This document shows positions 29,323 to 33,322 of a stretch of DNA of 38,631 nucleotides, piece by piece. Position 1 is the stretch's first letter; each line of letters opens with the position of its first letter. The stretch comes from Candidatus Saccharimonadota bacterium. Its GTDB lineage: Bacteria; Patescibacteriota; Saccharimonadia; Saccharimonadales; Saccharimonadaceae. The position numbers and the translations under genes are program-made. The stretch covers positions 1-38,631 of the forward strand of contig JACPYF010000027.1 in assembly GCA_016196195.1 (NCBI GenBank), given 5' to 3'. The notes under the pieces were generated by a model. That model made no database searches. It was not told where the DNA came from and saw nothing but the letters and a program-made list of their open reading frames with translations.

Positions 29323-29952
29323 CTAGCTAAACCTTGTTAGATGTATTCCACACTCCATCTTTTGATCTGGACCTTTTGTTGGATCTGAATAATTCATATT
29401 TTTTGGATAACCAGAAAGTTTAAAAAAATCATCAACTTCTTGTGCTGTGACATCTAACACGGGGTTTATGGCCAAAAATGAACCTCGGCGCTCTATATAT
29501 GACATTGCCTCTCTTTCAACCGTTTGGTCGCGCATTACGCCGAATAGTACTGCCTCTGGCTGATAACGATCAACCACTTCCCTTTGAAATAATTCGACTT
29601 TCCTAGCACGCAAAGCTTCCGCATCATGCACCACCTGGATATGATCACCGTGAACAGCTAAATTCAGATCAAAAACACCTTCATACCATTTGGCTAGCGT
29701 CTTTGTTTTATCGGTTTCGTGGCCCATGCGTACTGTGACCACCTGAATACCAGGGTCAACTTCACTGATAAATTTTAGCATCAGCGGTGAAGTTAGTCCG
29801 AAAGCCGTCGTAGCGATCAAGCCATCGCCAAACCTCTGCCTAGCCCAAGCTATCCTTTCTATTGGATCCATCTGCTCCAGCTCGATATTGAACTGATCTA
29901 AATCATAATCCGTAAACTCGATCTCTGGTTTTGGTAGTGTTTCTGTTGACAT
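29323..29952 (-). CDS. cysH: PAPS reductase-like (CysH family)
   Basis: ATTAFGLTSPLMLKFI PP-loop-like region and C-terminal MECGIHLTRFS; lacks paired-Cys Fe-S motifs of APS reductases. Confidence 0.8.
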   Translation of the reverse strand: MSTETLPKPEIEFTDYDLDQFNIELEQMDPIERIAWARQRFGDGLIATTAFGLTSPLMLKFISEVDPGIQVVTVRMGHETDKTKTLAKWYEGVFDLNLAVHGDHIQVVHDAEALRARKVELFQREVVDRYQPEAVLFGVMRDQTVEREAMSYIERRGSFLAINPVLDVTAQEVDDFFKLSGYPKNMNYSDPTKGPDQKMECGIHLTRFS

Positions 29953-30000: not shown

Positions 30001-30103
30001 ATAAAATATCTTTTCCGAAAATCGGAACTAGATTTAGCACCCAACTAAAAGGGTTGCTGGCAGGTCACAGGGCTAGGTCCCTCGCTGCGCTCTTGATATT
30101 AAA
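30001..30103 (-). ncRNA. SAM-I (S-box) riboswitch aptamer
   Basis: Minus strand AATATCAAGAGCGCAGCGAGGGACCTAGCCCTGTGACCTGCCAGCAACCCTTTTAGTTGGGTGCTAAATCTAGTTCCGATTTTCGGAAAAGATATT matches S-box core; P1 AATATC/GATATT, P2 GCAG/CTGC, P3 AACCC/GGGTG, P4 TTCCGA/TCGGAA. Confidence 0.92.
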
Positions 30104-30210: not shown

Positions 30211-30789
30211 ATGAGTGATGGAGAAAAACCACCCACTGATATTGAAGAGTTTAAAAGGGCAAAAGAAGATGCCGAGCTTGAAATGGAGCCACCGTATGTA
30301 GAGCTATTCGACATATTAATAGAAGATGCACTGTTCTATGACACACAAATCAAAGAGAAATATGCACAAACTAAACCAGAGTTCGACCTTGACTTTGGCA
30401 AAAGAGAAAAAGGCATATACTACATTCTAGTTAGACTGCAACATGATGGTGAGCTTTCGGGTAATTTAAATTGGGTGAACCCCGCCTTAGCCAAAACAGA
30501 GCTCTACTACTTTATTACAAATGCAGGCGAGCTTGTGAGGGAGATCTCTTTATCTACCCATGAAGGAGACAGTCCAAAGAATAAAATGTCGGTAACTACA
30601 GATTTAGGTAAAGAATTAGGTGAAGAATTTGCCAATTATTTATTTTCTGAACCTTGGTCTAATAAAGAAAAAATATTGAAGTTTTGCCAGCTAAGTGACG
30701 ACGAAAAACAGCAGATAGATGAAATTTACAAGCAATTCAAACTCCACCACATAGGCAAAACAGCCATCGATGACTCAGAATTAGACTAG
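30211..30789 (+). CDS. Hypothetical protein
   Basis: 192-aa acidic soluble ORF; no recognised family. Confidence 0.65.
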   Translation: MSDGEKPPTDIEEFKRAKEDAELEMEPPYVELFDILIEDALFYDTQIKEKYAQTKPEFDLDFGKREKGIYYILVRLQHDGELSGNLNWVNPALAKTELYYFITNAGELVREISLSTHEGDSPKNKMSVTTDLGKELGEEFANYLFSEPWSNKEKILKFCQLSDDEKQQIDEIYKQFKLHHIGKTAIDDSELD

Positions 30790-30861: not shown

Positions 30862-31572
30862 ATGAAAGACCCCGAAATCTCAACAAGAATAACCGAGTTA
30901 AAGAATGGGTTTCAGCAAGAAACTGATAAAAAGTTAGCTGAATTTGATAAACATGGCGAGCGCCTAGCAAGGCTAGAGGAAGACTTTGGCTTTGACCTAG
31001 ACATTGCAACAGATATTTACGGCGACAAGCTGTTGGACCCGCTAGATACCGAGAATGTTTTGGAAAAATGGGAGCAGCTACTAGCTAAAATAGCCAAGAA
31101 TCCGGGCGGCGATTTGCTCCTAGTTCGACAGGTAGAGGTATCAACTGGCGTTTACAGCGTTGCTCATAGCTCGAGTATAAAATATAGCGAAAAAGCAGTC
31201 GAAGTAGCCATAGTCAAGAATATACAGCCTGAAAATATAGTCTACGTACCTGCCGACCCTGAAAATAACATACCGGCGCACATAGCTGTATTAGGTGATG
31301 TCTCGGTTAGCTATCCAGCCAGGGAGCCAGGATACTCGAGAGGCCTGATAGAACCACCCGGTTCTCAAAACGGCATAATGTTAGCAGAGCAAACAGAAGG
31401 CATCAGGCTGTTGGATGGTAGCAGCGGCTTAGCATCCTATGATGTCTCATTTATCTACGATCCGACCTCAAAAGAAGCGTACGACTTGATCAATTCCAAG
31501 ATAGAAGACGCATTGCAATTCCCTATTCATATTATCGAACAAATACACGAAAGAAACGAAACAAAATCGTAA
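30862..31572 (+). CDS. Hypothetical protein
   Basis: 236-aa ORF with SD TCAGGAGGA upstream. Confidence 0.75.
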   Translation: MKDPEISTRITELKNGFQQETDKKLAEFDKHGERLARLEEDFGFDLDIATDIYGDKLLDPLDTENVLEKWEQLLAKIAKNPGGDLLLVRQVEVSTGVYSVAHSSSIKYSEKAVEVAIVKNIQPENIVYVPADPENNIPAHIAVLGDVSVSYPAREPGYSRGLIEPPGSQNGIMLAEQTEGIRLLDGSSGLASYDVSFIYDPTSKEAYDLINSKIEDALQFPIHIIEQIHERNETKS

Positions 31573-31662
31573 TAGAAATTTTAACGGTGTAACAGAGCTA
31601 GTTTCTTGATATACTGTTTCATGAAGCTGGAGATTAGTTTTAATATATTTGTCTTGGCCCGA

Positions 31663-31736
31663 TAGGGTGTGGCCAAGCGGTAAGGCAACGGGTTCTGGTC
31701 CCGTGATCGGGGGTTCGAATCCCTCCACCCTAGCCA
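31663..31736 (+). tRNA. tRNA-Gln (anticodon CTG), CCA encoded
   Basis: TAGGGTG...CACCCTA acceptor stem, ACGGG-TTCTGGT-CCCGT anticodon arm, GGGGGTTCGAATCCCTC T-arm, G discriminator and CCA. Confidence 0.96.
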
Positions 31737-31750
31737 AGACAAGCACATTG

Positions 31751-31768
31751 ATCCCTCATCCCCAGCCA
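31751..31768 (+). repeat. Direct repeat copy 1, tRNA-3'-end-like
   Basis: ATCCCTCATCCCCAGCCA, identical to 32642-32659. Confidence 0.9.
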
Positions 31769-31837
31769 GAGGCTACATATAGATCCAGACCCACGGGCCT
31801 CTACAAAATTCAACAAATATAATATGAGGCTTTGATC

Positions 31838-32614
31838 ATGCCAGAGATAGAACTGTCAATTGAGAATCCATACGCAACTCACAACTTGAGGCATAACCGG
31901 GAGCCCACCGCGTTCGCAAGAGCTTTTAGGCACTTGTCACTAGGTCTTAATCCAGGCAAAGTAGTTCCTGTCTTTATGCACATAGATAATGATCACAAGT
32001 TATTTGGCATATTTACATTAAATAAGGGCGGATCTGTATCCTTTTTCCCTGATTTTTATAAATTAAATAATTTTGATCATATAACGCTTAGTAAAGACTT
32101 CATAAAAAACAAAGGTCATTTAACAAAAGTTAGTGAAGCGGGTAAACATTCGAAATCAATCAGCATAGAAGCAAGTCTGCTCAGTAATGGTAACTACCAC
32201 TTAGTTACTTTCGGCATGGAGGACGGTGGCTTGTTAATGGATTCACCTCCCCAAATAGAACTGCCGCCAGTAACCTATAATTCCGAGGAAGAACAAAAAC
32301 GGTACCACGCATGGATTGAACAGGCTGTCGACTGTGGTATTTCTATCCTTTATTTTCCTAAGGAGCTGGGCTTTTACTGCGTTCAAATTATTGTTTCCCC
32401 AAAGGGCCATAGTGGACAAGGTATGTCCGTCGTAACGAACTTCATACAGAGGCTACTTGTTGATAGTGAAGTAATCGATAGTAATCAACGAAATTGTCAG
32501 GTAGTTACTATACCGACAACTGAAAATTGTGACTTTATGCTCCATATACTCACATTTCGCGTCAATAACAAACTAAGTACACCCTTTGGCATTTCGATGG
32601 CGCGAACAATATGA
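31838..32614 (+). CDS. Hypothetical protein
   Basis: Long ORF from ATG 31838 (MPEIELSIENPYATHNLRHN); no family recognised. Confidence 0.75.
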   Translation: MPEIELSIENPYATHNLRHNREPTAFARAFRHLSLGLNPGKVVPVFMHIDNDHKLFGIFTLNKGGSVSFFPDFYKLNNFDHITLSKDFIKNKGHLTKVSEAGKHSKSISIEASLLSNGNYHLVTFGMEDGGLLMDSPPQIELPPVTYNSEEEQKRYHAWIEQAVDCGISILYFPKELGFYCVQIIVSPKGHSGQGMSVVTNFIQRLLVDSEVIDSNQRNCQVVTIPTTENCDFMLHILTFRVNNKLSTPFGISMARTI

Positions 32615-32641
32615 TACCTTGTAGTGTCTTCTAATGAACCA

Positions 32642-32659
32642 ATCCCTCATCCCCAGCCA
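32642..32659 (+). repeat. Direct repeat copy 2, tRNA-3'-end-like
   Basis: ATCCCTCATCCCCAGCCA, identical to 31751-31768. Confidence 0.9.
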
Positions 32660-32668
32660 ATAGAATTT

Positions 32669-33322
32669 TTAAAAGTCGTTTTTGATCTCTTGGGCCAAGG
32701 CGCGTAGCCGTGATTTTTTGTTTTTGCCGTCGCGCTTGACATAGCGTAGCACTAGCAAAGCACCAAATATACCTCCCGCCAGATCGAAAATCATATCGTT
32801 CATAGTGTCAACTAGTGGTGATGCAGTCAGGCTACCCTGCAAATATGTTCCCAAAAATACGTCGGATAGATATTCTATTATTTCCCAAATTGCACCGATA
32901 CCAAGTGCAACCATAACGACTACAAACATCGTAGGCACTAGACTGGCCTTTAATGAACCCGTAGCCTGCATAGTATAGGCAAACATAGCAGCAATAAAAC
33001 CTAGGAAGAATGGCAACATAAAGTGTACCAGCTTGTCGTAGTAAGGCACATGGTCATAAAAATTGAGCGTTTCGCCTATGACCAGCTGCAGAACTACCAT
33101 AATAAATAGTATCAACTCGAACTCTAGCGGCATAGCTTTTATGCGACCACGTGACACAAACGCCGGAAACGAGATAGCTACAAGGGAAAGTAATATTGCC
33201 AAACCAACCAACGGCTCGTTGATAATCTGATATATTCCGGTAACCAGTACGATACCGCGCAGTATAGCCACTATCTTGCGTCGCCTGGCCAAAACATCTT
33301 TCTTGTTACTCATTGAGACCAA
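32669..33322 (-). CDS. DUF2238/YjdF-like membrane protein
   Basis: YYDKLVHFMLPFFLGF; GIGAIWEIIEYLSD; DTMNDMIFDLAGGIFGALL. Confidence 0.72.
   Translation of the reverse strand: MVSMSNKKDVLARRRKIVAILRGIVLVTGIYQIINEPLVGLAILLSLVAISFPAFVSRGRIKAMPLEFELILFIMVVLQLVIGETLNFYDHVPYYDKLVHFMLPFFLGFIAAMFAYTMQATGSLKASLVPTMFVVVMVALGIGAIWEIIEYLSDVFLGTYLQGSLTASPLVDTMNDMIFDLAGGIFGALLVLRYVKRDGKNKKSRLRALAQEIKNDF

Follow-up and report, generated by a model that had tools for sequence, protein, structure and literature searches.

Displaced tRNA-Gln 3' ends and a one-gene unit in a Saccharimonadaceae contig: a probable layered insertion site in a tRNA gene

The window analysed here, 38,631 nt in length, is an entire contig from a 585-kb assembly that is 84% complete. 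It contains a tRNA-Gln(CTG) gene followed by two exact, directly repeated copies of an 18-bp sequence, ATCCCTCATCCCCAGCCA, as the first-pass annotation of this DNA had reported. The organization of the locus is provided in Table 1. A single ORF of 258 amino acids lies between the two copies and no integrase gene was found inside the unit, both in agreement with that annotation. Two ORFs without confident family matches (30211-30789 and 30862-31572) are located directly upstream of the tRNA and could be extra cargo. In addition, a SAM riboswitch (S box) was found at 30003-30102 on the minus strand, upstream of a PAPS-reductase-like gene (29323-29952).

TABLE 1. Features of the tRNA-Gln locus, in window positions.
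Feature	Position	Strand	Basis or remark
Putative outer tRNA-Gln 5' remnant, TGGAGATTAG (cf. TGGGGATTAG in relatives)	31628-31637	+	Sequence match; RNAfold pairing
Leader/trailer helix, left arm	31642-31658	+	Inverted repeat with 31733-31749 (82%)
Intact inner gene, tRNA-Gln(CTG)	31663-31736	+	ARAGORN; Rfam tRNA, 60.9 bits
Leader/trailer helix, right arm	31733-31749	+	Begins in the GCCA end; ends 1 nt short of copy 1
Copy 1, displaced tRNA-Gln 3' end	31751-31768	+	Exact match to relatives; completes the outer stem of the predicted fold
Orphan ORF (258 aa), read as insertion cargo	31838-32614	+	Homologue searches empty; lowest codon fit
Copy 2, displaced tRNA-Gln 3' end, read as far insertion boundary	32642-32659	+	
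DUF2238 gene, convergent	32669-33322		Copy 2 ends 9 bp before it

The 18-mer repeats are correctly observed and are not due to chance. With respect to the 3' end of the window tRNA (31719-31736), the 18-mer shows 3 mismatches (15/18, with a mean of 0.01 matches in shuffles), and 16 of 19 bases are shared when the preceding A is counted, the figure originally given. A search for further copies, one of the checks that the first pass had proposed, revealed only these two exact ones in the 585-kb assembly; the tRNA-Gln(TTG) of contig C9 has a two-mismatch version as its own 3' end. In many relatives, however, the tRNA-Gln(CTG) gene itself ends exactly in ATCCCTCATCCCCAGCCA. Its 16-base core was present in 33 of 101 family genomes and constitutes the tRNA-Gln 3' end, mostly of the CTG type, in the majority of the fetched relatives' loci. 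The window tRNA-Gln has diverged through a compensated change in the acceptor stem (TAGGGTG/CACCCTA), so that the 18-mers are closer to the common family form than to the adjoining tRNA, which supports their origin from older or foreign tRNA-Gln ends. These data support both 18-mers as genuine displaced tRNA-Gln 3' ends.

The distribution of such ends supports repeated use of the tRNA-Gln locus for insertion within the family. Sense copies of the 3' end were located at most 1.5 kb downstream in 10 of 75 family tRNA-Gln loci, with none upstream and none antisense in those loci, and, overall, extra copies were found at +15 to +9136 nt downstream of tRNA-Gln in about 12 loci. Three of the units delimited in this way had no integrase: one of 0.95 kb with an Imm5-like ORF (G018), one of 1.85 kb with a MarR gene (G014) and one of 4.1 kb (G097), in which a P-type ATPase and a CsoR-like ORF were named by reading the sequence. 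They support the view that other genera, too, have cargo without an integrase bounded by tRNA-Gln and a displaced 3' end. The tRNA-Gln 3' end coincided with a contig break in G006 C11, G308 C4 and G097 C3, as expected if the site is population-variable or repeated. In L067, L363 and L371, another type of insert, GGTTCGGTGAAGCGC...AAGCGGAAGAG and variants of it, was situated upstream of the displaced tRNA-Gln 3' end; in L363, ATCCCTTC was matched only partially.

Elements that bear recombinases also use this site. The unit of G072, 9.1 kb in length, carries a serine recombinase together with other genes, and in eight fetched loci the distance from tRNA-Gln to a downstream serine recombinase ORF was no more than about 2.4 kb. 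Such ORFs are convergent with tRNA-Gln in L062, L068, L078, L082, L086, L093, L103 and L109, and three of these reading frames end within the tRNA 3' end. Additionally, a 31-kb IMG/VR contig contains the part of tRNA-Gln from the T-arm to the CCA, and a tyrosine integrase gene lies about 1 kb from this part, which is the pattern expected for attP. With this integrase gene and attP-like sequence, IMGVR_UViG_3300045996_000998 (L122/L272) is a candidate temperate phage of Saccharibacteria. Autonomous elements on the same att core were found, namely the tyrosine-integrase contig and the serine-recombinase unit of G072. In the window's own assembly (84% complete), no PF07508 serine recombinase was detected, and its single tyrosine recombinase (PF00589 match) was taken as the housekeeping Xer.

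The orphan ORF had no homologues in Pfam, PADLOC, PHROGs, PDB, phages, 200 relatives or GTDB genomes. Its codon fit was the lowest among the 21 window ORFs tested. The GC content of the unit was 0.40 vs. 0.445 for the window, a value that is not extreme compared with those of the window's ORFs. An AlphaFold model, obtained without alignment, had a pLDDT of 39 and was not interpretable. The congener G001 showed no match to the orphan ORF nor to its DUF2238 neighbour, the DUF2238 matches of relatives were situated away from their tRNA-Gln, and upstream synteny in genus g36 yielded no clean downstream boundaries. Copy 2 most plausibly marks the distal limit of the insertion that brought in the orphan gene, and this gene would be of foreign origin. 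A one-gene mobile cassette, as originally proposed, is possible and the unit is a candidate for it.

The phage-like attP with its integrase, the G072 element at the same site and the recombinase genes that adjoin tRNA-Gln in eight loci are also what would be expected if a larger prophage or integrative element had decayed here, with the orphan as its last gene and the repeats derived from attL and attR. The 891-bp unit, however, retains neither a phage nor a recombinase remnant and gave no PHROG match, and we regard such decay as rather unlikely.

Copy 1 is located 14 nt past the window tRNA-Gln and, by analogy with other loci, most plausibly belongs to an enclosing, older tRNA-Gln as its 3' end. 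In six other loci (L018, L076, L101, L294, L297, and L299) nesting with clear outer 5' halves was observed: an older tRNA-Gln is split into a 5' part and a 3' end that flank a complete tRNA-Gln, the latter being carried on an extended leader/trailer helix, and the leader/trailer duplexes of these loci had energies of -25 to -35 kcal/mol. The reading of copy 1 as part of a nest draws mainly on this analogy, since only about 10 nt of an outer 5' half, with one mismatch, are left in the window. This remnant at 31628 matches the tRNA-Gln 5' end at 8 of 9 specified bases, the best among 60 loci and a level reached in 30 of 5000 shuffles (0.6%), and in RNAfold it pairs with the outer 3' end at 31751-31768. 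The nested fold of the window had a z-score of -2.8, with equal stability in 1 of 200 shuffles. Its leader/trailer helix has 11 continuous base pairs and -16.8 kcal/mol, against a median of -6.2 kcal/mol in 56 other tRNA-Gln loci (two of them below -20) and a mean of -13.8 kcal/mol in 42 swapped pairs, the best swapped partner being more stable than the true one.

The close nested arrangement is rare, as exact-pattern searches found it in 5 of 393 genomes of the order and in a few GTDB records. An Rfam scan of the nested regions revealed tRNAs only. Poor cross-pairing of the acceptor stems in the window led us to reject a riboswitch-like switch between the tRNA and copy 1. Long leader/trailer helices were also seen around non-nested tRNA-Gln genes in L118 and L121 (-26.5 and -21.9 kcal/mol, respectively). 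The titles and abstracts found in searches of the open-licence literature described neither nested tRNAs nor T-loop inserts for Saccharibacteria.

These observations bear on the model of the first-pass annotation, in which the two copies were att-type sites or duplicated tRNA 3' ends that bracket a possible one-gene cassette. Spelled out, this model would have a single cassette (31769-32659) flanked by its two att sites, with the integrase supplied in trans and a pre-existing tRNA-3'-like site at 31751. The part that stood is that they are displaced tRNA-Gln ends at a recurrent insertion site; the pairing of the two copies as the ends of one cassette was not supported. It must be noted that one ORF enclosed by exact 18-bp direct repeats, the low codon fit of this ORF and the other integrase-less units of the family all favour a single cassette. 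The left att site, however, is usually the tRNA itself, while 3 of the 18 repeat positions are mismatched in the window tRNA and copy 1 would have to predate the insertion, which is explained by a nested tRNA and not by a simple tRNA att site. At 14 nt past the tRNA, copy 1 fits an older enclosing tRNA-Gln better, and we consider a single cassette with these two ends unlikely. Local duplication of tRNA ends by slippage or gene conversion, unconnected to mobile DNA, would suit the small duplicated 3' ends found 60-125 nt downstream in G220 and G088, but it is very improbable given that copies lie up to 9.1 kb away, in sense and downstream of the tRNA, and enclose genes and a recombinase, and that the copies in the window correspond to the common family tRNA instead of the tRNA next to them.

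We consider it probable, therefore, that successive insertions into the tRNA-Gln gene are layered at this locus. An ancestral tRNA-Gln(CTG) with ATCCCTCATCCCCAGCCA as its 3' end would have received at least two entries of DNA into its T-loop/3'-end region, and in each of them an intact tRNA-Gln would have been retained or supplied upstream while the old 3' end was displaced downstream. The more distant event would have left copy 2 as its right boundary, with an insertion in which a single orphan gene and no recombinase are now present. The nearer event would have placed the present tRNA-Gln, on its long leader/trailer helix, within the remains of an older tRNA-Gln, of which copy 1 would be the 3' end and the approximately 10 nt at 31628 the 5' end. 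We infer the order of the events. The enzyme was presumably a tyrosine or serine integrase of an element since lost or located elsewhere.

Integrative DNA classically leaves displaced tRNA ends as its footprint. The locus resembles the genomic islands in tRNA and tmRNA genes defined by Islander (PMC4383910), including those formed by tandem accretion, in its insertion at the tRNA T-arm/3' end, in the intact tRNA on one side with a displaced 3' fragment at the other end, and in having several fragments in a row. This fragment is exact with respect to the family tRNA-Gln and 15/18 with respect to the window's own. The locus differs from those islands in that its unit consists of one gene and carries no integrase, its left boundary is not the tRNA itself, and a functional tRNA is probably nested in another tRNA with an extended helix. 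As in integrase-less satellites (IMEs and phage satellites), the unit would need a recombinase in trans and has an att core common to autonomous elements at the same site, but it is only 0.9 kb in length and has neither known satellite genes nor an identified helper. Integron gene cassettes are likewise single-ORF units, which form arrays and all end in one common short site; in the window, however, the repeat is a tRNA 3' end and not an attC with R and L boxes, the insertion is beside tRNA-Gln, and no IntI was found in the 84% complete assembly. In several genera, a functional tRNA was seen to lie within an older copy of its own gene that has been split. This provides a sequence record of repeated tRNA insertion in bacteria with very small genomes and shows a landing site of their mobile DNA.

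The loops of older tRNA-Gln copies hold a structured insert of about 100 nt, here named R1, for which a model was built from nine tRNA-Gln loop inserts. Copies of R1 were found in 12 of 380 genomes of the phylum, two of which have ten each. None was found in the window, and the genome to which it belongs has one, beside tRNA-Val (L305:402-501). The partial tRNA copies that bear R1 (loci L018, L069, L076, L078, L080, L083, L294, L297, and L299-L353) are of the Gln, Val, Lys, Leu, Pro, Glu, Gly, His, Arg, and Ser isotypes. An intact tRNA on the same strand was present no more than 400 nt from R1 in 41 of 45 copies examined, and in most the flanks of R1 best matched the isotype of the nearby intact tRNA. 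In the nine-sequence alignment, double changes occurred in 22 of 33 pairs. Among 53 distinct sequences, 94.5% of cells pair vs. 74.4% in shuffles and there were 299 double changes vs. 66.7, in an alignment that was fitted to the model and in this way favours R1. No Rfam family matched R1.

This strong covariation points to R1 as an undescribed structured RNA, and to an RNA family linked to partial tRNA duplication, its members being tied to partial tRNA copies beside intact cognate tRNAs. Both an intron-like RNA and a folded recombination site are possible. We tentatively suggest, as a doubtful extension, that Saccharibacteria harbour an undescribed class of tRNA-targeting units, in which R1 inserts with three hairpins occupy the T-loop or anticodon loop, and that the window locus may be a decayed member which gained a gene. 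In this class, each partial copy would adjoin an intact tRNA of matching isotype, which would sometimes be nested inside the split copy. In most 3'-type R1 loci (e.g., L301, L303, L315, L326, and L340), the tRNA variable region and T-arm are repeated in inverted orientation between the intact tRNA and R1, at a near-constant spacing.
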